A DNA stretch of 49,896 nucleotides from a virus: positions 1 to 49,896 of the IMG/VR virus record IMGVR_UViG_3300021371_000025; one strand, given 5' to 3'. The position numbers and the translations under genes were made by a program. Under the pieces are notes generated by a model. The model saw only the letters and a program-made list of their open reading frames with translations. It searched no databases and was not told the DNA's origin. Each line of letters starts with the position of its first letter. The stretch's first letter is position 1. Of the stretch, positions 3,061 through 49,896 are shown in pieces.

Positions 3061-3137
3061 AATAATATTTCCTTTTGTTATGCACTGTAAAGTGTACTTG
3101 ACATCTTGATAAGTGCTTGTTTTCGTTTTCATGCCCT

Positions 3138-3169
3138 ATTATAAGCACACCAGGAACACAAAACGCAAC
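3138..3169 (-). promoter_or_regulatory. Candidate leftward early promoter
   Basis: On the minus strand a perfect TATAAT (3143-3138) lies about 80 nt before the first leftward gene. The -35 is weak (TTGCGT with a 19-nt spacer). The leader contains an imperfect palindrome CACTGTAAAGTG near 3084-3095 that could be an operator. Position supports the call more than sequence does. Confidence 0.4.
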
Positions 3170-3410
3170 ACTTTTTTAAATGCTGTAAGAATGCACGTTT
3201 CAGAGGTGGTAGTGGGGAAAAATTGTTCAATGATATTTGATGAGACTAAATCTCAGCTTCAGACTTTTTTAAATTTGTCAAGTTTTGTGACAAAAGTAAT
3301 TAAAGCTTGAAAAGTGTATGAAGCTTTAAAAGTCTTTCAAAGTAATTTAAAAATAACTATTACTTTTAAAATGTTTATCTCTTGATTCATAAACTAGACA
3401 AATGTTCACA

Positions 3411-3556
3411 ACTTTAAAAGTTTTAAAAGACTTTAAAAGGGGACGTTTGACACTTTAAAAGACTTTAAAAGTTATACACAAGTTATCCACAGGCACTTTA
3501 AAAACTTTACAAGTTGTTGATATCCTGTGGATAAGTCTTGACACGCTTTTAAAGTA
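3411..3556. other. Probable replication origin: DnaA boxes and ACTTTAAAAG iterons
   Basis: Three DnaA-box sequences are visible: TTATACACA (3472-3480), TTATCCACA (3483-3491) and the inverted TGTGGATAA (3526-3534). The first two start 11 bp apart, about one helical turn. They adjoin four exact ACTTTAAAAG units (3411, 3430, 3452, 3462) and an inverted copy CTTTTAAAGT at 3546-3555. Iterons plus DnaA boxes in an AT-rich, gene-free stretch between divergent blocks is the classic layout of a DnaA-dependent theta origin. T7-like phages normally do not use DnaA, so function is inferred. Confidence 0.65.
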
Positions 3557-3589
3557 GGGGGGGCAGGAGCTACAGGGGGGGTGGGGTGG
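3557..3589 (+). other. G-run cluster with quadruplex potential
   Basis: Two runs of seven G (3557-3563 and 3575-3581) are followed by GGGG and GG, then by a (TA)n tract. This stands out sharply in an AT-rich genome. It could form a G-quadruplex on the plus strand, or be a packaging or replication-pausing element; no protein is encoded here. Confidence 0.5.
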
Positions 3590-3689
3590 TATATATATAA
3601 ATCTTATACATTTCTAACCAATATCGATATAAACCAGTTGGGCTTTATAAAGCTTTAAAACTTCTAAAACTTCATAAGCTTTTATACAT

Positions 3690-3736
3690 AAAAAAACCCA
3701 TAGTTCTTGTTAAATATTTTATAACAAGCTATGGGG
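3690..3736 (-). terminator. Strong leftward intrinsic terminator in the control region
   Basis: A 14-bp stem (3697-3712 with 3722-3735, a 2-nt bulge) is followed on the minus strand by seven U residues (3696-3690). No leftward protein gene lies upstream of it. It sits about 90 nt downstream of a perfect leftward promoter, so it is best explained as the end of a short RNA. Confidence 0.85.
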
Positions 3737-3823
3737 ATTATAAAGAATATTTGATAAATATTTGTTAGGTTTAGGTGGGGCTTGGGTTGCCTATATTATG
3801 TATTTAAACCGGGGGACGTTTTC
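3690..3823 (-). ncRNA. Putative ~134-nt small RNA next to the origin
   Basis: The unit is bounded by a perfect sigma70-type promoter (3858-3830) and a strong intrinsic terminator (3736-3690). The predicted transcript, 3823 to about 3690, contains no ATG, so it is unlikely to be translated. A 6-bp stem GGTTTA/TAAACC (about 3802 and 3770) can close its 5' half, and the terminator hairpin forms the 3' end. By position it could regulate replication in the manner of plasmid antisense RNAs, or act on host or phage mRNAs; both are guesses. Confidence 0.6.
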
Positions 3824-3829
3824 AACTTT

Positions 3830-3858
3830 ATTATACACTTACTTTTCAATTTTGTCAA
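3830..3858 (-). promoter_or_regulatory. Perfect leftward sigma70-type promoter
   Basis: On the minus strand TTGACA (3858-3853) and TATAAT (3835-3830) are separated by 17 nt, matching consensus at all 12 positions. Expected start is near 3823. It is divergent from the terS promoter, with the two -35 boxes about 38 nt apart. Confidence 0.85.
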
Positions 3859-3895
3859 GTCTTTTTTGCAAATACTTTAAAAATGTGTAAAGTAC

Positions 3896-31608: not shown

Positions 31609-31727
31609 AACTAGATGACATAGAAAATGTACACCCGATGAAACAGATTACAATAGCTTCTGTTGTACAGGTATTAGTATTTGGACTTATGTTATTTGCA
31701 TTTTGGATAAACGATAAAGCATTATGA
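31605..31727 (+). CDS. 40-aa single-span membrane peptide coupled to csgF
   Basis: MKLDDIENVHPMKQITIASV leads into one hydrophobic span (VVQVLVFGLMLFAFWI). Both ends are ATGA overlaps, and the downstream one is with csgF. It therefore links the putative lysis genes to the curli-like cassette in translation. Function unknown. Confidence 0.5.
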   Translation: MKLDDIENVHPMKQITIASVVQVLVFGLMLFAFWINDKAL

Positions 31728-32218
31728 AATTAAAACCGACATTTAAAAGTGAAAAAGCTTCAAGGAACTGTAAGTGGTGTATGTTCTTTTGGTCTATGTT
31801 AATTATGTTTTGGTCTGTAGGAAGTATTGCAGATGAAGTAGTATTTAAGTTTAAAAGTCCTAGCTTTAATGGTGTTGGTACATCATCACATTATCTTACA
31901 ATCCAGAATCAAGAGTTCAATCGTAAAGAAGCATTAAAGGCAGAAATAAAAGCACTTCAAGACCAGATAAAAAGAGACAAAGAGAATACAACTCTTGCAA
32001 GATTTATAAGAAACTTAGAGTCTAGAATATATGCACAATTATCTAGACAGTTAGTAGAAAATTTATTTGGAGAGACTGCTAGTGATAGTGGTATATTAGA
32101 ATTAGAAGGTAACACAATAGAATATAGTGTTGTCGATGGAATAATAACTTTAAACATAACGGACAGTGATGGAAATACAACGACTATTTCTTTGCCTATC
32201 GGTAGTTTTACTTTCTAG
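31724..32218 (+). CDS. csgF: Curli assembly factor CsgF homologue
   Basis: In E. coli CsgF caps the CsgG pore outside the cell and helps anchor the curli nucleator. This 164-aa protein has a signal peptide (hydrophobic core about 20-33, likely cleavage after Ala36 in GSIA-D). Directly after it comes VVFKFKSPSFNGVG, matching the CsgF start that plugs into CsgG (TFQFRNPNFGG type). It is followed by a helical part and the C-terminal YSVVDGIITLNITDSDGNTT, equivalent to YIVDIANRDGQLQLNVTD in CsgF. The N-terminal helix region is Lys-rich and longer than in E. coli (138 aa). It overlaps csgG by 50 nt and is ATGA-coupled to the upstream membrane peptide. Confidence 0.85.
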   Translation: MKLKPTFKSEKASRNCKWCMFFWSMLIMFWSVGSIADEVVFKFKSPSFNGVGTSSHYLTIQNQEFNRKEALKAEIKALQDQIKRDKENTTLARFIRNLESRIYAQLSRQLVENLFGETASDSGILELEGNTIEYSVVDGIITLNITDSDGNTTTISLPIGSFTF

Positions 32219-33023
32219 TTGTGCTGTTTTAAATCAGAATAAAGACTTAACATTAACACAAGATATTAAGCCTAGTTCTATATTAGATTTACAGTCAGAA
32301 GAATTAAAAAACTTACCACGAGCAAAAGTAAAACCTACTATAGCTATATACCCCGATAGCTTTAGAGACTTAACAGGACAACGTAGAAGTAATAGTTCGT
32401 TTGCTTTGTTTAGTACAGCTATTACACAAGCTCCTGAAGCATTTCTTATAAGAGCTTTTAAACATGCTGCAGGTGGTAAATTTTTCAGAGTTGTAGAACG
32501 TGTAGGATTAGATGACTTAACAAAAGAAAGACAATTAATTAGAGCTACACGTAAAGAGTTTAAAGAAGATAATAAGATGCAACCACTGCTATTTGCAGGG
32601 TTATTAGTTCAGGGAGGAGTTGTTAGTTATGAAGCTAACCTCAAATCTGGAGGTGCTGGTGCTAGATACTTAGGAATAGGTAATAGTAAACAGTATAGAG
32701 AAGATACAGTTACTATATCATTACGATTAGTTTCTGTGTCAACTGGAGAAGTGCTTACCGAAACATTAGTTTCTAAAAGTATTATATCCACAAGTATTTC
32801 TCAGGATGTATTTCGTTTTATAGAAGCCGGTACTGAACTGGTAGAAATAGAAGGAGGAGTTGCTGAGAATGAAAGTGTTTCTATAGCTTTACAAAAAGCA
32901 ATAGAGACTGGAGTATTAAATATAATAAATATTGGAATAGAGAGAGGCTATTGGGAATATGAAAACATTAAAATTAATGAGCCTAGTTGTGATGATGAGT
33001 GCATCACTGCTATACGGGGCTGA
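32169..33023 (+). CDS. csgG: Curli secretion pore lipoprotein CsgG homologue
   Basis: CsgG forms a nonameric outer-membrane channel that exports curlin. The 284-aa product begins MEIQRLFLCLSVVLLSSC, nearly the E. coli opening, with a lipobox LSSC at Cys18 and Ala at +2, which favours the outer membrane. Strong family signatures are VVSYEANLKSGGAGARYLG, LVSVSTGEVLTE, SQDVFRFIEAG and AIETGVLNIINIGIERGYWE. In the constriction segment I align FALFSTAI with E. coli NFSTAV: the Phe56 equivalent is kept, but Asn55 becomes Leu and Tyr51 appears changed. GTG at 32166 is an alternative start one codon upstream. It overlaps csgF and the curlin gene. Confidence 0.93.
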   Translation: MEIQRLFLCLSVVLLSSCAVLNQNKDLTLTQDIKPSSILDLQSEELKNLPRAKVKPTIAIYPDSFRDLTGQRRSNSSFALFSTAITQAPEAFLIRAFKHAAGGKFFRVVERVGLDDLTKERQLIRATRKEFKEDNKMQPLLFAGLLVQGGVVSYEANLKSGGAGARYLGIGNSKQYREDTVTISLRLVSVSTGEVLTETLVSKSIISTSISQDVFRFIEAGTELVEIEGGVAENESVSIALQKAIETGVLNIINIGIERGYWEYENIKINEPSCDDECITAIRG

Positions 33024-33675
33024 CAACGAAATATATGTTGACCAATCTGGTGCTACAGCAAATATTGATTTAGAACAACTTGGAAACTCTAACATTATTG
33101 GTGGACTAGATTCTGTTGCTGGTACATTAACAGCATTAGACTTAGACGGTTTGAATCTTACATTAGATATAAATCAAATCGGTAATACCAATAAATTTTT
33201 AGGTGATATCCTTGGCGATAACATTACAGGTTTTTTTGAGTTTGACGGAGATAGTAATACATTTACTATTCAAGGAGACCCAACTGATACTTATGGGATA
33301 GATGGTTCTGATTACAATGTTGATGTAACTGGAAGTTCTAACACATTTACGTTAGACACAGGTACATCTGCACTTGCAGGTACGGTTGACTTAGACTGGA
33401 TTATCAATGGTGATAGTAACACCTTTGATTTTGATATTAACTATGATGGAGCTACTAACTACGTAGATGTAGATGGTGATAGCAACACAGTAAACTTTAC
33501 AGGAAGCGGATATGCAGACGGATACTTCTACCTTGACCACACAGGTGACAGCAGAACATTTAACATTATCCAATCTTCAACATTGGTTTCAGACTGGTTG
33601 CAAATCAATTCTAACGGTAACAATGGTACTGTTTGTATTGTTCAAAATGATGGTGGTACAACTACAAGCTGCTAA
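32959..33675 (+). CDS. Secreted curlin-repeat (CsgA-like) protein
   Basis: The 238-aa protein has a signal peptide (MKTLKLMSLVVMMSASLLYG). It then carries about eight units spaced 20-40 residues apart: EQLGNSN and NQIGNTN match the curlin Q-x-G-x-x-N motif, while later units replace Gln (FDGDSN, VTGSSN, INGDSN, VDGDSN, HTGDSR, INSNGNN). A beta-solenoid or amyloid fold is likely. It is strongly acidic with many Asp and ends with two Cys (VCIVQNDGGTTTSC), unlike E. coli CsgA. Immediately after csgG, it is the obvious candidate substrate. No second curlin (CsgB) or CsgE is seen. It overlaps csgG by 65 nt. Confidence 0.75.
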   Translation: MKTLKLMSLVVMMSASLLYGADNEIYVDQSGATANIDLEQLGNSNIIGGLDSVAGTLTALDLDGLNLTLDINQIGNTNKFLGDILGDNITGFFEFDGDSNTFTIQGDPTDTYGIDGSDYNVDVTGSSNTFTLDTGTSALAGTVDLDWIINGDSNTFDFDINYDGATNYVDVDGDSNTVNFTGSGYADGYFYLDHTGDSRTFNIIQSSTLVSDWLQINSNGNNGTVCIVQNDGGTTTSC

Positions 33676-34696
33676 TATTGGAAACATAACAGAATTAAAA
33701 GGCACTGGTAGAGTTGTAAGAGATTTAACTTTTCAAGCTGCATTAGACCTAGACATAAACAGTTACGATAATGTCCAAACTTCTAACGGGAGATTGGGCA
33801 TTACTTTTTTAGATGACAGTCAAGTTAGATTGACAGAGCATTCTGAATTAATTATAGATGAATTTATCTATGACCCAGACCCTTCTAAATCTAAGATGGC
33901 ACTTCAGTTTGCCAGTGGTACTGCAAGATTTATCACAGGTAAGTTAGCTACAATAGATAAAGAAAATATAACTATCAATACTCCAAGTGCTACGATAGGT
34001 ATTCGTGGTACAGACTTTACTGTAACTGTAGATGAGTTAGGTAGAAGTTTAGTTATATTATTACCAGACGATGACGGTCTTCCAAGTGGAGAGATAGTTG
34101 TCGCAACAGCTATGGGACAGGTAGTTCTTAACAAGCCTTACCAAGCTACAACAGTTTCAATGTATGAGACTGAACCAACTAAACCCGTTATCCTTGACTT
34201 GACTCTTGAGTTAATTGATAACATGTTAATAGTAAATAAACCACAGGAAATACAAGAGGATGAAAGAGAAGATGGAGGGAGCAACACTAGTATTCTTGAT
34301 GTTGATTTCCTTGAGTTTGATGATTTAGAAATAGATTATCTTGCAGAAGATGAGTTAGAGTTTACAGAGTTAGACATTAATTATCTTGATGTAAATTTTC
34401 TTGAAGACCTTTTAAACATCATAGAAGATGTTAATGAGTTAGACCAAACTGAAACACTTTTAAAAGCTGATATAGATTTAAAAGGTACTCAAGTTGGATA
34501 CGATTCTAATACTCAGATAAATACTTTTATGACTGATAACTTAATAACATTTTATAAAACTTTAGAAGATACAGTTCGTTTAGATTTAGATAAACAAAAT
34601 GCTTATACTATTATTTTAATACAAGATGGTAAGAGTACACAAATAGTTGTCAATGGTGGTGGTAACTCTACTATAAAAATTACACAAGGTAACTAA
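33623..34696 (+). CDS. Periplasmic FecR-domain protein
   Basis: I chose ATG 33623 because it gives a short signal peptide (MVLFVLFKMMVVQLQA, cleavage before ANIG); the open frame reaches back to 33512 inside the curlin gene. The product is then 357 aa. The FecR domain (about 20-125) reads GNITELKGTGRVVRD, NVQTSNGRLGITFLDDSQVR, LTEHSEL, FASGTARFITGKLA and TINTPSATIGIRGTDFTV, all standard family features. The rest is acidic and beta-rich with no membrane span. FecR-domain proteins are typically sensors or scaffolds in the periplasm and often stand next to CHASE2-cyclases, as here. It overlaps the upstream gene by 53 nt. Confidence 0.8.
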   Translation: MVLFVLFKMMVVQLQAANIGNITELKGTGRVVRDLTFQAALDLDINSYDNVQTSNGRLGITFLDDSQVRLTEHSELIIDEFIYDPDPSKSKMALQFASGTARFITGKLATIDKENITINTPSATIGIRGTDFTVTVDELGRSLVILLPDDDGLPSGEIVVATAMGQVVLNKPYQATTVSMYETEPTKPVILDLTLELIDNMLIVNKPQEIQEDEREDGGSNTSILDVDFLEFDDLEIDYLAEDELEFTELDINYLDVNFLEDLLNIIEDVNELDQTETLLKADIDLKGTQVGYDSNTQINTFMTDNLITFYKTLEDTVRLDLDKQNAYTIILIQDGKSTQIVVNGGGNSTIKITQGN

Positions 34697-34697
34697 C

Positions 34698-36437
34698 ATG
34701 AAGTGGGCAATTACCTTATTAACTCTATTAACTTTGCCTCTCCTCTTCAATAGTGTACCATTAGAAGTACTAAGACTCAAAACATTTGATGCTCTTGTCA
34801 CAACTCCAGAACCTACTGGATACTTTACAATCCTCAACATTGACGAACAATTCCTAGATGAACAAGGTGGATATCCCCTGCCTAGAGAAACACTTGCAAA
34901 GATTCATAACGATATAATAAACAAAGGTGCATTAGGTGTAGGATGGGTTATGTTATTTCCACATCCAGATAGAATGGGTGGAGATGATGAGTTTTCTAAA
35001 GCATTACAAAGCTCTCCAAGTGTTATAGCTATGCCAGAAATATCTAATGGTATTTATCCTAAGACACACGGTACAGTTATCAAAGGACCAATAGTATCTC
35101 TACCAAAAGCTCAAGGCTTTTTAGAGAACATAGAACCTTTAAAACAATCAGCTAGTCAAGGTGCTATCTCTGCACCAGTAGATGTAGATAATTTAGTAAG
35201 GCGTATACCTTTACTACAACAAACTAATAATGGGTGGGTTGCTTCGTTTGGAACAGAAGTTTTAAAAATACTAGGAGGTGGTCGTACTTATCAGATTGTC
35301 ACAAATCTGAATGGAATAGAACAGGTTAGAGTTAGAGGTATTCCGCCCATTACCACTGATAGTCTAGGACGTAAATGGATTAGTTGGGTTGATACACCAC
35401 AAACAACACTATCTGAAATGAATGTAGAAGGTAAGTTTGTGTTCGTAGGTTTTACAGCCAAGGGTATATCACCACAACTTGCAACACCTATAGGTCTATT
35501 AGAACCACATAAAATACAAGCAGCTCTATCAGAAAGTATGTTGATGGACACACCACAAATACCAGACTATAGGTTGTTTGTTGAATTATTATTATTAATA
35601 GTCTCAGGCTTACTCACAGCTCTTCTAATAAAGTATCTAGGTATTACTAAGGGTGTTGTATCATTCTTAGGTTTGTTCTCTTTTATGGCATATATGGAGT
35701 ATCACTTTGTAAGCTATAATATCTTGATAGACTTTACATGGTCTCTAATAAGTATGACACTTATTGCTACCTTACAATTCTATTTAAACTTTAGAACTCA
35801 ATACAAACTTAGACAACAAATCAAGAAACAATTTGAACATTATCTTGACCCAAGACAAGTCAAACAACTACAAGATAATCCAGAGCTTTTGAAGTTAGGC
35901 GGAGAACGAAGACGTTGTACGTTTTTATTTACAGACGTTAGAGGCTTTACAAGTTTATCAGAACGATTAGAGCCTGAACAAGTTACAGAGATTATGAACA
36001 AAGCATTAACGATACAAGCTGATGCAGTTAAAAAGTATGACGGTATGGTGGATAAATATATTGGTGATGCAATGATGGCTATCTTTAATGCACCTATAGA
36101 TGTTGAAGACCATGAGACCAAAGCCATCCAAACAGCCCTGAAAATAAAACAAGATATGGCAAAAGCCGATTTAGGAATAGAGATAGGTATAGGAATAAAT
36201 ACAGGAGAGGCAGTCGTAGGTAATATGGGAAGTGATACAAGGTTTGATTACTCTGCTATTGGTGATGCTGTTAATTTAGCGGCAAGATTAGAAAGCTCTA
36301 CTAAAGAAGTAGGAGAGGATATAGTAATAGGGTATACCACAGCTATGAACTCTGATATACCCACTAGATATCTAGACCCTATAAAAGTAAAGGGTAAGAA
36401 AGATGAGATAATTATCTACACTACTTTAGAACATTAA
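34698..36437 (+). CDS. CHASE2 sensor - class III adenylate/guanylate cyclase
   Basis: The 579-aa inner-membrane signalling protein has an N-terminal span (about 3-20), a periplasmic CHASE2 domain (about 25-285), three spans (about 290-363) and a cytoplasmic class III cyclase domain (about 405-575). All catalytic positions are present: metal Asp413 (FTDVRGFT) and Asp457 (DKYIGD), base-selecting Lys453 and Asp517 (FDYSAIGD), and transition-state Asn526 and Arg530 (NLAARLE). Lys/Asp at the selector positions predicts ATP, hence cAMP. It starts 1 nt after the FecR gene and converges with the next gene, overlapping its end by 17 nt. Cyclases of this type are not a usual phage cargo. Confidence 0.92.
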   Translation: MKWAITLLTLLTLPLLFNSVPLEVLRLKTFDALVTTPEPTGYFTILNIDEQFLDEQGGYPLPRETLAKIHNDIINKGALGVGWVMLFPHPDRMGGDDEFSKALQSSPSVIAMPEISNGIYPKTHGTVIKGPIVSLPKAQGFLENIEPLKQSASQGAISAPVDVDNLVRRIPLLQQTNNGWVASFGTEVLKILGGGRTYQIVTNLNGIEQVRVRGIPPITTDSLGRKWISWVDTPQTTLSEMNVEGKFVFVGFTAKGISPQLATPIGLLEPHKIQAALSESMLMDTPQIPDYRLFVELLLLIVSGLLTALLIKYLGITKGVVSFLGLFSFMAYMEYHFVSYNILIDFTWSLISMTLIATLQFYLNFRTQYKLRQQIKKQFEHYLDPRQVKQLQDNPELLKLGGERRRCTFLFTDVRGFTSLSERLEPEQVTEIMNKALTIQADAVKKYDGMVDKYIGDAMMAIFNAPIDVEDHETKAIQTALKIKQDMAKADLGIEIGIGINTGEAVVGNMGSDTRFDYSAIGDAVNLAARLESSTKEVGEDIVIGYTTAMNSDIPTRYLDPIKVKGKKDEIIIYTTLEH

Positions 36438-41724: not shown

Positions 41725-43441
41725 TCCAGTTATCTCCTATCTTGTATTCGCCATCTAAAGGACAACGAAGATTAAAATGTGTTCCTGCTTTTACAATACT
41801 ATCTACTGCAAAGTTCCCTATAAAATCAGCTTTATCTTTTGGTACTTCTATCTGCCACTCATCATGTATGTTAGCTACGAATTTATAATCCATTGCATTT
41901 AATCTTAACACATCATCTAACATAACCAATGCTTGTTTCATTACGATAGCACCTGCACCTTGTAGTAAAGTGTTCAATGCTGAATGTTGATTACGAACAT
42001 ACAGCTTCCTACCATCTAATCCTTTGAGGTAATTTTTTGCTGAAGCTCTTTGTACCCTGTCTCTAAGAGACTTAAATGTAGGCTTATTATCAAAGAAATA
42101 TTGTCTAGCTCTCTTACCATCTGCTGTACCTCCTCCGACCACGCTACCAAGTTTTTCATCTCCTGCTCCGTACATAAGTGCATAGATGAATGTCTTTGCT
42201 TTATCTCTAGATTCAAGGTTTGCAAGTTTTTGATTAGCGGTGTGTATGTCTCCATTGAGAATTTCATTTGTGTACTCCTCGTCATTCATGTAGTGAGCTA
42301 ACATTCTAATCTCAAGACCAGAAGCATCAACTCCGATTAAAACATTACCTTCTTCAACAGTCCAACATGCTCTACATTCTTTACCATAAGGACTATAGAC
42401 TGCCGGTACTTGTGCCATGTTAGGATTCCTGTGTGTCATTCTTCCTGTGATAGCACCGTTAGGTATTACAAAGCCATGTACCCTACCATCATCTTGTACT
42501 CCTTCAACCCAAGAGTCAACTTGAGCTATACGCTTTTGAAGTAATAAGAAGTCTGCTATAAGTTTAGCTTCGTGTATATGTGTGATTGCTGATAGAGTTT
42601 TCTCATCTACTATAGGTTGACCTGTTGGTGTAAACCTTTCAGGCTTCCAACCAAAGTCAATAAGATATTCTCCTATCTGTTTACGACTACCAAGATTAAA
42701 CTCTTGTAGTGTTTGTCTCATAAAAGGTTCAAAGTTATTTGTATCTAAACATCTTTGATACTCATCATCTGTAAGTCCACGCTTTGATAAGTCTCCATCT
42801 TTTTTAATATAAGGATTAACTAACTTATCATCTACCCATTTAGGTTTAAATGTATTGTGTACTTCATCTTCAATGGCTTGTTTCTTTTCTCTAAGTTCAG
42901 CAAGTAATAACAAAGCTGATTCCAAATCAAACTTAAAACCATTTACCTCTTGCTGTTTCATTATCCTAGCTACACCTTGTTCTAAAGATATACATTGTTT
43001 AGAGAATCCTTTACTCTCCTCTCTTAGTTTCTTTAATACTACAGCGTTGAGTTGTACATCTCTAACACAATAGTCCATCATCTCTTTAGAATAATTAAGA
43101 TAGTCTGAAAACTCTATCTTATGATAGCCTAATTTATATCCCCATTTCTCAAGGCTATGACCACCTTCTCTATTAGGATTAAATAGTCTTGATAGTACAA
43201 GAGTATCAATCACTGGTATCTTTGACAAGTCTACACCACCGAACTTCTCTACCATAGGTATATCAAATCCGATGATGTTATGTCCTATTAAAGTATCTGC
43301 CTTAGTCAACAGTTCATATCCTTCAGACAATTTATCTGGTGGATATTTATATATCTCTCCAGTGTCCATGTCTTGTGCAACGATACAGTGTACCAGAGTT
43401 GCTTTCAAGTCATCTGTTTCTATGTCAAATACTAAGTCCAT
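41711..43441 (-). CDS. T7-like family A DNA polymerase
   Basis: The 576-aa replicative polymerase has a proofreading domain with ExoI (Asp6, Glu8: FDIETD), ExoII (GHNIIGFD, Asp60) and ExoIII (YCVRDVQ, Asp128). The polymerase domain has motif A (IGVDASGLEIR, Asp372), motif B (RDKAKTFIYALMYGAGDEKL; Lys416, Tyr420, Tyr424) and motif C (NIHDEWQ, Asp527). Tyr420 is at the position of Phe762 in E. coli Pol I, as in T7 (Tyr526). It is shorter than T7 gp5 (704 aa). Confidence 0.95.
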   Translation of the reverse strand: MDLVFDIETDDLKATLVHCIVAQDMDTGEIYKYPPDKLSEGYELLTKADTLIGHNIIGFDIPMVEKFGGVDLSKIPVIDTLVLSRLFNPNREGGHSLEKWGYKLGYHKIEFSDYLNYSKEMMDYCVRDVQLNAVVLKKLREESKGFSKQCISLEQGVARIMKQQEVNGFKFDLESALLLLAELREKKQAIEDEVHNTFKPKWVDDKLVNPYIKKDGDLSKRGLTDDEYQRCLDTNNFEPFMRQTLQEFNLGSRKQIGEYLIDFGWKPERFTPTGQPIVDEKTLSAITHIHEAKLIADFLLLQKRIAQVDSWVEGVQDDGRVHGFVIPNGAITGRMTHRNPNMAQVPAVYSPYGKECRACWTVEEGNVLIGVDASGLEIRMLAHYMNDEEYTNEILNGDIHTANQKLANLESRDKAKTFIYALMYGAGDEKLGSVVGGGTADGKRARQYFFDNKPTFKSLRDRVQRASAKNYLKGLDGRKLYVRNQHSALNTLLQGAGAIVMKQALVMLDDVLRLNAMDYKFVANIHDEWQIEVPKDKADFIGNFAVDSIVKAGTHFNLRCPLDGEYKIGDNWSETH

Positions 43442-45108
43442 TAAAATGCCTCATCTAAACTATTGTCAAAGGTTATGTCCTCATCTGTTAGTTCAGATAG
43501 TCTACCAGTTTCTCCATCATATACAACTCTACATGCCATACCTACATCTCCAGTATACCTTGATTTAAGTATACGAAGTCTTGTAGTCCTAGCTTCTTCA
43601 GGGTCATCTGATTGTTGATTTCTTTCTAGTGCAATAACACAATCACTAAGTTGTCCGATACTATTAGAACCTCTAAGATGAGATAGAGAAACCTCTATGC
43701 CATTCTCATGTCCTTTATTACCATCAACTCTACGTAAGTGTGAAACTAAAATGATACCTGCACCTGTCTCTTCTACCAAACTTCTAAGTCTAGTCATGAT
43801 AGAATCAATAGCACGTCTTTCATCTCCTTCATGCACAGCACTGACTAACATGTGTAAATGGTCAACGACCACCCACTTGCAATCACATCCTATAATCATA
43901 AAGCGAAGCTTGGTAAAGATATCATCAATGTCATTCGTACCAAAGTGTGAATGAACCCATACTCTATTCTTGTTCTCACCATCATAAAGTATATCAAACA
44001 TTTTATCTAGTTCTTCTTTAGAAAACTTCTCACGTTCTTGGTCAACGTATAACCTAGCATTAGCTTCAATAGATAAGATACCATCAATGGTTCTTCTCCA
44101 ATCTTCTTCTAGTGCTATGATACCTACGTTATCTGTAGTGTTCTTAATAAGATGATGTTCAAGTTCTCTTGTCACACTTGACTTACCAAGACCAGTACCA
44201 CCTGTAAGTGTGACCAGTTCTCCTGCTCTAAGACCATACAACTTTTTGTTCAGTCCTTCATAAGGATAAGGAACACTTTGTTTCTTCTCACGATTATGAA
44301 ACTTCTCACGCTGTTCAGAAACATTTATAACACCAGAAGGTGTATAAACTTTACTAGCCCACCAAGCTTCAACAAACTCTTTATGCTTGTTGTTTCTTAG
44401 CATATCGTTAGGGTCTTTCCAACCGTTAGGAAGCGTAACTATTCTAGCTTTCCCGGGCTTGAAAAGTCTAGCAACTTTTATACTAGCTTCTTGTCCTGCC
44501 TTATCTTTATCAAAAGCAATGATAACATTTTCAAAGTCATCAAAGAACTCTAAGCTTTCCTTGATATCTCTGACTGCACCATTTGCTCCACGCTTAATAG
44601 ATACTACAGCCCATTTAGAACCAAGCAGTTCATAAGTAGCCATAGCATCACACTCCCCTTCAGTGACGGTGACATATTTACCGCCTTTGAAAAGTTGTTG
44701 ACCAAACAAACCTGTATCATTATAACTACCAGATACAAAGAAGTCTTTGTCCTTACAGTTTCTAATCTTAGTAGCTGACAACTCATGCCCATTGTAGTAA
44801 GGATAAAAATGTTTAACGACATTACCTTGTAAGTCATGTACACATTTAACCCCATACTTCTGAGCAGTGTTCATGGAAATCTTCCTGTCCGTAAGGGCTG
44901 AAAACTTTCCTTCTCCTACTGTATCTGGTTGTTTAGTTTGCACTGTTGTTGTTGTTTGCATATCTTTTCCTCCACATGCTTTAGTATAGCTAGGCATAAA
45001 CTCTCCACAACTGAAACATTTTGCTGAGTCATCTTCATTGATTCCTACAGCATCACTGCTTCCGCAAAGTGGACAAGGTTGATGCAACTTATCCCAAGTT
45101 TTATCCAT
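43441..45108 (-). CDS. Helicase-primase (T7 gp4-like)
   Basis: I chose ATG 45108, with GAGGG 5 nt upstream, giving 555 aa. Domains in order are a zinc finger (Cys12, Cys15, Cys31, Cys34), a TOPRIM primase (VTEGECDAMAT; IIAFDKDKAGQE) and a RecA-like helicase with Walker A GGTGLGKSS (around 300) and Walker B WVVVDHLHML, plus HLRRVD and the GSNSIGQLSD segment. It unwinds DNA and lays primers at the fork. It adjoins the polymerase, sharing one base. Confidence 0.95.
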   Translation of the reverse strand: MDKTWDKLHQPCPLCGSSDAVGINEDDSAKCFSCGEFMPSYTKACGGKDMQTTTTVQTKQPDTVGEGKFSALTDRKISMNTAQKYGVKCVHDLQGNVVKHFYPYYNGHELSATKIRNCKDKDFFVSGSYNDTGLFGQQLFKGGKYVTVTEGECDAMATYELLGSKWAVVSIKRGANGAVRDIKESLEFFDDFENVIIAFDKDKAGQEASIKVARLFKPGKARIVTLPNGWKDPNDMLRNNKHKEFVEAWWASKVYTPSGVINVSEQREKFHNREKKQSVPYPYEGLNKKLYGLRAGELVTLTGGTGLGKSSVTRELEHHLIKNTTDNVGIIALEEDWRRTIDGILSIEANARLYVDQEREKFSKEELDKMFDILYDGENKNRVWVHSHFGTNDIDDIFTKLRFMIIGCDCKWVVVDHLHMLVSAVHEGDERRAIDSIMTRLRSLVEETGAGIILVSHLRRVDGNKGHENGIEVSLSHLRGSNSIGQLSDCVIALERNQQSDDPEEARTTRLRILKSRYTGDVGMACRVVYDGETGRLSELTDEDITFDNSLDEAF

Positions 45109-45126
45109 GTTAGCCCTCACTATGAA

Positions 45127-45385: not shown

Positions 45386-45799
45386 TTAAAACTCCTCGTT
45401 ATCTGAACTGGGTTCAGTATATTCAACTAAATTAGTGACCTTCACAGCTATTAACTCTGCAAACGTACCATACTTTCCTGTGTAAGGTTTAATCTTCACA
45501 GTCACTTCTGAGCCATTACCAAGACTAACATCTAAGTCATTGCCATCGGCATCAACTAACTTAGGTGCAGGGTTGGTTGTCCCATCATGTCTAATTACAT
45601 TTCTACTGAATGAGAAAGCAGGTTCATCATACTTAGGCTTACCATCTCTAGTTCTAGTTCTTGATAGCCCTGCACTTTCTAATCTAGTAGCAGTATCTTC
45701 ATCAGTCAACACAACTATTCCGTACTTATGTGGTTCAAACTTAGTGTTTGGTGTGCTGACATTAGCCCACATAGCTTTTCCTTCTACATACTCATACAT
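45386..45799 (-). CDS. Single-stranded DNA-binding protein (gp2.5-like)
   Basis: The 137-aa protein contains AMWANVSTPNTKFEPHKYGI, then FSFSRNVIRHDGTTNPAPKL and VKIKPYTGKYGTFAELIAVK, an OB-fold-like beta pattern. The acidic tail ends SSDNEEF, like the phenylalanine-terminated tails of T7 gp2.5-type SSBs that contact polymerase and helicase. The ribosome site ATAGGAGGT is strong, as expected for an abundant protein. It is first in the replication operon. Confidence 0.75.
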   Translation of the reverse strand: MYEYVEGKAMWANVSTPNTKFEPHKYGIVVLTDEDTATRLESAGLSRTRTRDGKPKYDEPAFSFSRNVIRHDGTTNPAPKLVDADGNDLDVSLGNGSEVTVKIKPYTGKYGTFAELIAVKVTNLVEYTEPSSDNEEF

Positions 45800-45845: not shown

Positions 45846-45874
45846 ATTCTATCATACTTTTTCTTTTTGTGCAA
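45846..45874 (-). promoter_or_regulatory. Candidate promoter before the SSB gene
   Basis: On the minus strand TTGCAC (45874-45869), a 17-nt spacer and TAGAAT (45851-45846). The -10 is good (5/6) but the -35 is poor (3/6). It lies about 50 nt upstream of the SSB-like gene, overlapping the 3' end of the previous gene. Confidence 0.35.
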
Positions 45875-46106
45875 GTCTTTTCTGTCTTCTTCTTGCATTG
45901 TTTCTATCTCGTGTAAATTGTATAGCCCCTTGCAAGTCTTCCCATAACTCATCAAGTGCTTGTTTCTTTTGTTCTTTGTTAAGTCTTGTAATGATTTTGA
46001 TATCAGACTTCTTAGGAATCCATGTGTCCCAATAGGCTTTGTCCATGTCTTTCCATGTCCAACCTATCTGCTTGTCTAGTGTTGTTGATTTAAAATATAA
46101 ATTCAT
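45852..46106 (-). CDS. 84-aa hypothetical protein downstream of the structured leader
   Basis: MNLYFKSTTLDKQIGWTWKD continues DKAYWDTWIPKKSDIKIITR and a basic helix (NARRRQKRLAQKEKV). GAGGG lies 5 nt before the start. It is the first gene after the 376-nt non-coding leader and so would be the first target of any regulation there. Family unknown. Confidence 0.65.
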   Translation of the reverse strand: MNLYFKSTTLDKQIGWTWKDMDKAYWDTWIPKKSDIKIITRLNKEQKKQALDELWEDLQGAIQFTRDRNNARRRQKRLAQKEKV

Positions 46107-46482
46107 AATAACCCTCGTGTTAAAATGCCTTACCCTCGTTTAACATCATGAGTACACAAGGGCAAGGACTTTGTTTCAGTGTGATGGACGATGGTTTCTA
46201 ACACTCATTCCAACCTTTAGTCTACGACCACCTTTAAGGATTTTACAGTAAACTCATCTTACACTAAACTAATTTGCAGGGAAGGTCTCCGGTTTAGTTC
46301 TTATCCCATGTCATCTACAACCTTTTCAAGAAAGGATTTTACAGTAGCTCGGACACCTGCAAAACTTTAAAATCAGTCTGGTTTTAGTGGCACTAGACCA
46401 GAAACTAGCACGATATAATCGTATGTCTTTAGGTTCAGGAAGGTTAGTTGAGGGCTACACCTTTGGACATACCTATACATTA
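46107..46482 (-). ncRNA. 376-nt structured non-coding RNA or leader
   Basis: This gene-free stretch follows a perfect promoter (46517-46489). It can form at least five local stems: 46178-46182/46201-46205, 46263-46269/46292-46298, 46377-46382/46397-46402 (with a further 4-bp inner stem), 46410-46414/46418-46422 and 46421-46427/46466-46472. A 15-nt direct repeat (AAGGATTTTACAGTA at 46236 and 46332) is 96 nt apart. No ORF with a ribosome site is seen. It could be a stable RNA or a regulatory 5' leader of the replication operon. I cannot match it to a known RNA family. Confidence 0.6.
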
Positions 46483-46488
46483 GGAGTA

Positions 46489-46517
46489 ATTATATTATTC
46501 CTGTCCCTCTTTGTCAA
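46489..46517 (-). promoter_or_regulatory. Perfect leftward promoter driving the structured leader
   Basis: TTGACA (46517-46512), 17-nt spacer, TATAAT (46494-46489) on the minus strand match consensus at 12 of 12 positions. The boxes overlap the last codons of the gene at 46495-46683. Predicted start is about 46482. Confidence 0.85.
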
Positions 46518-46683
46518 CTCTTAAATCTAATAATTTAACTTTATATTCATCTTTATTCCACACAACTTCATAAGCTATTTGGTCTGTAGAATTATCGTGA
46601 TTATATTTAATAACATATTCTTCCCATGCTCTAAACTCTTCTTTACTCATTGGAGTTAGTTCAGTATCTTTTGTAATTATCAT
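46495..46683 (-). CDS. 62-aa hypothetical early protein
   Basis: MIITKDTELTPMSKEEFRAW continues EEYVIKYNHDNSTDQIAYEV and ends RVDKEGQE. Its ATG overlaps the TGA of the membrane micropeptide upstream (ATGA), and its own end contains the promoter for the next unit. Unknown family. Confidence 0.6.
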   Translation of the reverse strand: MIITKDTELTPMSKEEFRAWEEYVIKYNHDNSTDQIAYEVVWNKDEYKVKLLDLRVDKEGQE

Positions 46684-49847: not shown

Positions 49848-49896
49848 CTATCTTGTCTCATATAAATTACCTCTACCATTTACACCATAGCCCTCT
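49848..49896 (-). CDS. 3' end of a second DUF6891-like gene, cut by the right window edge
   Basis: The last 15 codons (EGYGVNGRGNLYETR) and a TAG stop are present. The DNA is identical to 851-898 and the complete left copy is at 850-1257. This is a window-edge truncation. Confidence 0.65.
   Translation of the reverse strand, partial: EGYGVNGRGNLYETR

Follow-up and report, generated by a model that had tools for sequence, protein, structure and literature searches.

A structured RNA leader with interchangeable modules upstream of the replication genes of marine phages, and its possible role as a riboregulator

Several described RNAs invite comparison with the leader reported here. Antisense RNAs of the RNAIII type in S. 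aureus mask Shine-Dalgarno sites with C-rich loops, and the 3' UTRs of flaviviruses carry xrRNAs, exonuclease-resistant RNAs arranged in tandem. In phages, the leader of T4 gene 32, the SSB gene, contains a pseudoknot operator with UUAA(A)-rich linkers (PMC3014915), and the put RNA of HK022 consists of two stem-loops that bind RNA polymerase (PMC9378689). We describe a leader ahead of the replication genes in a viral record from IMG/VR (IMGVR_UViG_3300021371_000025); the whole stretch that was analysed, positions 1 to 49,896 of that record (49,896 nucleotides), is called the window.

Across 91 distinct leaders the architecture is a promoter, a hairpin (H1), an optional mini-hairpin, usually a pseudoknot (PK1), and then interchangeable modules (Table 1). 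As in the RNAIII-type RNAs, a hairpin of the leader carries a C-rich loop whose sequence is complementary to a Shine-Dalgarno region, but here this loop lies within the leader of the same operon, is long (26 nt), is phage-borne and is tied to a pseudoknot. Its H-type pseudoknot and its linkers rich in UUAA(A) recall the T4 gene 32 operator, likewise a leader element of a phage SSB/replication operon (by inspection, UUUUAA(A) linkers often precede the RBS in the 91 leaders); there is no sequence relation to that operator, which lacks the additional C-rich-loop hairpin matching the primase RBS and the swappable modules. HK022 put is likewise a structured RNA of 70-100 nt just past an early phage promoter, as in the window lineage and not in a sister lineage described below, but the loop of H1 is long and open, a pseudoknot comes after the hairpin, and in relatives H1 stands upstream of SSB with no promoter. 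With the xrRNAs the leader shares the presence, in a viral RNA, of pseudoknotted domains that are redundant and arranged in tandem, whereas here they occupy a 5' leader or intergenic position, comprise at least ten unrelated recombining module types and show no Rfam similarity. Finally, tandem riboswitches also present repeated homologous folded domains with conserved loops in an mRNA leader, as modules A and B do, but here Rfam shows no known aptamer, the modules are exchanged for unrelated pseudoknots, and minimal leaders have no modules at all.

Table 1. Coordinates of the leader and of the downstream features in the window
Feature	Position	Strand	Remarks
Sigma-70-type promoter of the leader, TTGACA-17-TATAAT	46489..46517	-	12/12 consensus; most relatives keep the promoter
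Hairpin H1	46420..46473	-	Covarying stem; near-invariant C-rich loop (46434-46459)
UAGCCCUCA within the H1 loop	46449..46457	-	Complementary to UGAGGGCUA of the primase RBS
Optional mini-hairpin CGA-nnnn-UCG	46411..46421	-	Missing in some relatives
H-type pseudoknot PK1	46377..46409	-	Stem 1 GCUAG/CUAGU, stem 2 UCUGGU/ACCAGA; both stems covary
Module A, three-way-junction-like	46273..46364	-	First copy of the 15-nt repeat; covariation; CM R1, 107 bits
Module B, homologue of module A	46175..46268	-	Second copy of the repeat; covariation; CM R1, E 3.6e-4
Terminal hairpin T2, then UUUU	46127..46169	-	One of several interchangeable 3' modules
RBS (GAGGGUUA) and start codon of the 84-aa gene	46104..46118	-
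84-aa gene	45852..46106	-	Matches no known family; C-terminal helix predicted to be long and basic
Gp2.5-like single-strand-binding protein (SSB)	45386..45799	-	phrog_112, E 2e-8
Primase-helicase RBS, UGAGGGCUA	45111..45119	-	Complementary to the H1 loop
Primase start region, UGAGGGCUAACAUG
Primase-helicase	43441..45108	-	phrog_239, E 5e-178; start ATG 45108 (ORF list: GTG 45120)

Relatives were collected from IMG/VR by a scan with the 84-aa and SSB proteins, which gave loci L002-L142, most of which keep the leader, and by a scan with the H1 loop pattern, which gave 105 viral stretches; the deduplicated set comprises the 91 distinct leaders, and the loop pattern had no occurrence in 84,980 bacterial and archaeal species genomes. 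All of these relatives are metagenome contigs and single cases may be chimeric assemblies at shared modules, but module combinations recur across different samples. The capsid protein and primase of the window are 59% and 46% identical to those of HTVC115P, which places it near the HTVC103P/HTVC115P-type pelagiphages, and from these relatives the host is probably SAR11. No similar DNA was found among 50,697 records of isolated phages, no tRNA or tmRNA in the stretch, and no description of such an element in open PMC papers. Elsewhere, the window carries a curli-like gene island (31724-36437, +) with CsgF (E 3e-18), CsgG (E 3e-48), a repetitive curlin-like protein that has no Pfam match, a FecR-domain protein (E 3e-11) and a CHASE2 plus adenylate/guanylate cyclase protein (E 2e-28, 2e-20). 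An AT-rich non-coding segment at 3300-3600 (+), with many CTTTAAAAG-like iterons and the DnaA-box-like TTATCCACA, is a possible replication origin, and the record ends (about 850-897 and 49850-49895, -) share GAGGGCTATGGTGTAAATGGTAGAGGTAATTTATATGAGACAAGATA, either a duplicated gene end or a terminal paralogue.

A sequence-only reading of the window had singled out this stretch for a perfect promoter at the end of a gene, followed by the longest gene-free stretch of the early block ahead of the replication operon. The promoter does overlap the 3' end of a 62-aa gene (ORF 46495-46683), and the order downstream is 84-aa ORF, Gp2.5-like SSB, primase-helicase, DNA polymerase. From promoter to 84-aa gene the leader measures 377 nt on the minus strand, with no ORF of at least 50 aa; it is the longest gene-free stretch of the right-hand early block, but that description does not extend to the rest of the window, which has further non-coding stretches around 1480-1900 and 3130-3880. 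Taken together, promoter-like sites are no commoner than in shuffles, but the perfect ones are only two in 7.9 kb, the second (TTGACA-16-TATAAT, 47790-47763, -) being in the early region ahead of a 64-aa ORF. A terminator scan gave no site near 46110. The SSB and primase may also be made from leader-less transcripts, given a possible promoter at 45873-45846 just ahead of SSB. In some relatives (L129, L120, L136 and L227) a second promoter (TTGACTTTC...TATAAT) lies between the array and the 84-aa RBS, so that there the 84-aa gene can be expressed without the leader.

Folded as a single sequence the leader is not unusually stable (z -1.36, with 8 of 100 shuffles equally good), and Rfam 15 gave no match in the window at the gathering threshold, just as no known family had been recognized by eye, and none at E<=1 in six relatives, which have most of the module kinds; looser matches (E<=10), for instance rli49 and CRISPR-DR13, either lie on the opposite strand or fall far short of the threshold, and are meaningless. 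The case for structure therefore depends on the comparison of relatives. In H1 and PK1, 97.3% of cells are paired, with five double-changed pairs, as compared to at most 42% in slid controls, and PK1 across lineages is 92.7% paired with four double-changed pairs (controls at most 43%); the shuffle controls, here and for the modules below, ignore ancestry and do not amount to probabilities. The RNA interpretation, for which a lack of covariation in related phages or the presence of conserved codons had been named as possible refutations, thus survives on both points: compensatory changes are present, and there is no conserved ORF of useful size that could specify a protein, the indels and swaps disregarding reading frame. 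That separate helices agree is difficult to account for except by real structure and, judged from these comparisons, the leader is a structured RNA upstream of replication genes and not a product of chance. H1 begins about 10 nt downstream of the predicted transcription start, and its open loop, UGUAGCCCUCAACUAACCUUCCUGAA, hardly changes among the 91 leaders as its stem varies. The folding energies of H1 (z -0.6 to -4.2 across lineages) do not by themselves establish the hairpin in every lineage.

The core can stand alone. Some minimal leaders (L103, L123 and L127) consist of H1-PK1 only, and in a sister lineage, gathered through a scan with the SSB of locus L277, a compact H1-PK1 lies between a 67-aa gene and SSB, with neither modules nor an 84-aa gene. 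In L282 a model of H1 and PK1 finds a diverged copy immediately ahead of SSB (E 5e-5), and in L277 itself a weak match in the same place (E 0.14); neither locus has the 84-aa gene. One sister-lineage H1 reads GGTATATTATAAG-AAGTTTTGCCCTCCTTTATTTAA-CTTATAATATC and is followed by PK1 as ACAAG-TTT-CCGGT-CTTGT-GCCACCTAAA-ACCGG and then by the SSB start site; the H1 stems of this lineage are unrelated in sequence to those of the window, yet they pair, and the loop retains GCCCUC.

In the sister lineage PK1 is directly ahead of SSB, some 30-100 nt upstream of its start, as compared to the window, where it precedes the 84-aa gene and SSB comes second. By analogy with T4 gp32 on the gene 32 leader pseudoknot, the phage SSB might bind PK1 and repress translation of its own operon, to which the sister-lineage position, the UUAA(A)-rich linkers as in T4 (PMC3014915) and a pseudoknot-like fold upstream of SSB in HTVC115P would all be suited. 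We consider such an operator quite improbable: in the window lineage the 84-aa gene separates leader from SSB, which has its possible own promoter, the module arrays of H1-less phages are about 4 kb from SSB, and the SSB itself is Gp2.5-like, not gp32. The HTVC115P fold (L222:4330-4470) combines GUUG/CAAC with GAGUAG/CUACUC in a non-coding stretch of about 400 nt; a module-A-like arm there (AUAC-UGUAA...GUU-GUAU) is suggestive by eye and was rejected, as the module A model (R1, below) does not recover it.

The reading that we tentatively prefer is that the leader is a cis-acting riboregulator that controls translation of the replication genes and is fitted with swappable structural modules. 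The persistence of the core in a sister lineage that has neither modules nor the 84-aa gene counts in its favor, and it draws on the relationship between the H1 loop and the primase RBS. GAGGGC occurs in the primase RBS at 133 of 134 loci with H1 as compared to 3 of 23 without it, an association behind which there are few independent events, since the loci that have H1 and those that do not come from different lineages. The neighboring base also follows: where the loop base after GCCCUC is A, the RBS base before GAGGGC is U (86 of 87 loci), and where it is C the RBS has G (39 of 39), so that loop GCCCUC-A faces U-GAGGGC in some lineages and GCCCUC-C faces G-GAGGGC in others; with loop U the RBS has G in six loci of eight and U in two. 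Cognate duplexes are predicted to be stronger than those swapped between lineages (-18.2 versus -16.2 and -19.2 versus -14.2 kcal/mol), and on the start regions of the window the real loop binds better than shuffled loops (1 of 200 shuffles). The SSB site is GGAGG and the loop-matching motif never occurs there. Counting against the pairing, C-rich loops match purine-rich Shine-Dalgarno sequences easily. What we find is a C-rich hairpin loop complementary to an RBS and kept so by compensatory change, as looked for in a Shine-Dalgarno-masking RNA, over few independent events, the independent loop/RBS double changes probably numbering two or three. The pairing is in this sense supported but confounded by ancestry.

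Other potential partners of the loop were less convincing. In the minimum-energy fold of the window leader the 84-aa RBS pairs with the H1 loop, but a GAGGGYUA RBS also stands at the 84-aa gene of L239, which has no H1, and we therefore reject a specific pairing with the 84-aa site, which is less specific than the primase match. Also counting against the primase pairing, in L057 H1 is present and a recombinant primase has an RBS devoid of the motif. Copies of GAGGGCTA at 897 and 49895 were rejected as RBSs, being one repeated stretch that is coding at 897.

Of 100 unique H1 sites in the window lineage, 97 have the 84-aa gene behind them, and the gene is found in all eight H1 records examined against none of seven array records that have no H1. 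The structure model of its product is fairly confident, with a long C-terminal helix predicted to be rich in Arg and Lys, and family, structure and fold searches gave no relatives of the protein. In the lambda N/nut system a small arginine-rich RNA-binding protein is encoded beside its RNA site; the 84-aa protein has a basic helix and co-occurs with H1, but it has no known relative and is gone where the core persists in the sister lineage. One could accordingly imagine an antitermination site, with H1-PK1 binding RNA polymerase directly, as put does (PMC9378689), or by way of the 84-aa protein, and permitting read-through of the early operon; the position of H1 in the window lineage, close behind the early promoter, would fit as well. 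This seems to us very improbable, in that H1-PK1 of the sister lineage comes directly after an upstream gene and does without the 84-aa gene, the 26-nt open C-rich loop followed by a pseudoknot is unlike boxB or the two stem-loops (about 70 nt) of put, and the loop/RBS covariation would be left unexplained.

With regard to the modules, the hairpins with perfect stems and the 15-nt direct repeat that the sequence-only reading had reported are accounted for as parts of two homologous RNA modules. The repeat TACTGTAAAATCCTT is indeed present in two copies 96 nt apart (46332 and 46236) and belongs to the common core of modules A and B, which in the window follow one another and are joined by T2. 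A covariance model built from module A alone (R1) recovers B in the window (E 3.6e-4), and therefore the two copies are homologous, as well as module C in L054 (E 6e-9) and L107 (E 9e-13); A, B and C are junction-like domains of about 90 nt. Pairing is kept in 99.5% of cells in A (seven double-changed pairs, controls at most 48%), in 98.1% in B (five double-changed pairs) and in 100% in the pseudoknot T1 (three double-changed pairs, all in the second stem). The 91 leaders hold from none to about five modules in slots of largely fixed order, with at least ten kinds in about 75 combinations. Most optional modules read as H-type pseudoknots on one plan, with first stem AGUC/AGUG/AGAC and third loop [U]UUAAA, a reading made by eye and put to the test only in T1 and PK1. 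Of 238 module placements, 233 share the orientation of the gene that comes next, an indication that the modules act as RNA. Insertions of a short piece, AAATCCTAGATTAAATTCGGGG, occur both between modules and in the capping hairpins of B and C (L014, L051, L017 and L129), and they resemble a nested mobile mini-element. No credible relative of module A was found in 197 Pelagibacter-family genomes, and a host origin was rejected, the single weak match falling within an apparent protein-coding gene.

Tandem, sense-oriented, intergenic and swappable modules might alternatively serve as armor of the mRNA, with H1 stabilizing the 5' end and the pseudoknot array slowing exonucleases (RNase J coming from the 5' end, or 3'-5' enzymes) as a mechanical barrier, by analogy with xrRNAs. 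Any strong fold would then serve, and hence the modules would be interchangeable; the location of H1 close to the predicted transcription start would make sense, and RNase J is present in four of four genomes of the Pelagibacter family, the presumed host group. We nonetheless think this unlikely, as the conservation of loop sequences exceeds what stability needs, the loop/RBS covariation is left unexplained and leaders of H1-PK1 only exist; furthermore, the host is assigned by inference only and no similar Rfam family was found.

Pairs of near-identical phages illustrate how the modules move. L096 and L095 are 98.8% identical over 600 nt upstream and 99.9% over 800 nt downstream of the leader, yet carry modules A-E-D-I-J and B-K-D-I-J, and L030 and L028, with flanks 99.7% and 99.8% identical, differ by an exchange of A for B. 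The share of such pairs is inflated by the removal of identical leaders, and we cite individual examples only. On the sequence evidence, related phages are exchanging modules faster than flanking genes, and because modules can stand in for each other, they are shuffled by recombination. In members of the family that have no H1, arrays built from these modules lie about 4 kb upstream of SSB, straight after the stop codon of a conserved gene of about 135 aa, and complete or long records mostly have one array each. The arrays might form a combinatorial, recombining RNA repertoire under diversifying selection, each module countering a different host or rival factor and the H1 core acting as a fixed translational switch of the primase; we hold this to be unlikely, but if true, module swapping within one population would resemble the exchange of anti-defence genes.

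A related possibility is that the leader, or a piece processed from it, acts in trans on other RNAs of the phage or host, or sequesters a defence factor or RNA-binding factor of the host, the shuffling of modules reflecting an arms race. The differing module content between near-identical flanks and the extra promoter between array and gene in some relatives are compatible with this. The best target of the H1 loop in the window is moreover the start of another early gene, of 71 aa (-23.1 kcal/mol), but this target is not conserved in relatives and was rejected; there is no known target or factor, and the swapping could be neutral, and we find the proposal quite doubtful. Of the roles suggested in the sequence-only reading, then, a folded leader or ncRNA and possible riboregulator is sustained by the covariation of stems and of loop with RBS, whereas no positive evidence emerged for a riboswitch-like leader or an RNA decoy: Rfam detected no known riboswitch aptamer in the window or the six relatives, and no decoy target is known. 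An aptamer of a new kind could still be present.

Returning to the cis-acting riboregulator that we prefer, we propose a 5' leader RNA of the early replication operon whose fixed part would be the promoter-proximal H1 followed by PK1. The H1 loop would pair, over about 8-9 bp, with the primase-helicase RBS located 0.8-1.8 kb downstream, on the same transcript or in trans, and in the window lineage the RBS of the 84-aa gene, the first of the operon, could be a further partner. We infer that such pairing would take place in the cell and would hold back translation of the primase and 84-aa genes, with SSB, whose site has no motif, outside its reach. The modules between core and first gene are most likely structural units that tune the leader through spacing, mRNA lifetime or start-site access, and the fact that they are interchangeable is suggestive of a generic function, for instance in stability, spacing or insulation; counting against this riboregulator, the sequence kept in module loops exceeds what a generic spacer would need.

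We know of no other phage with an mRNA leader built of folded cassettes that are interchangeable and recombine more rapidly than the sequences on either side. With this leader, a widespread group of marine phages gains structured RNA elements that have no Rfam entry, and two questions become testable, namely whether translation of a primase-helicase is controlled over a distance of about 1 kb by the pairing of a loop with an RBS, and why phages shuffle RNA folds.
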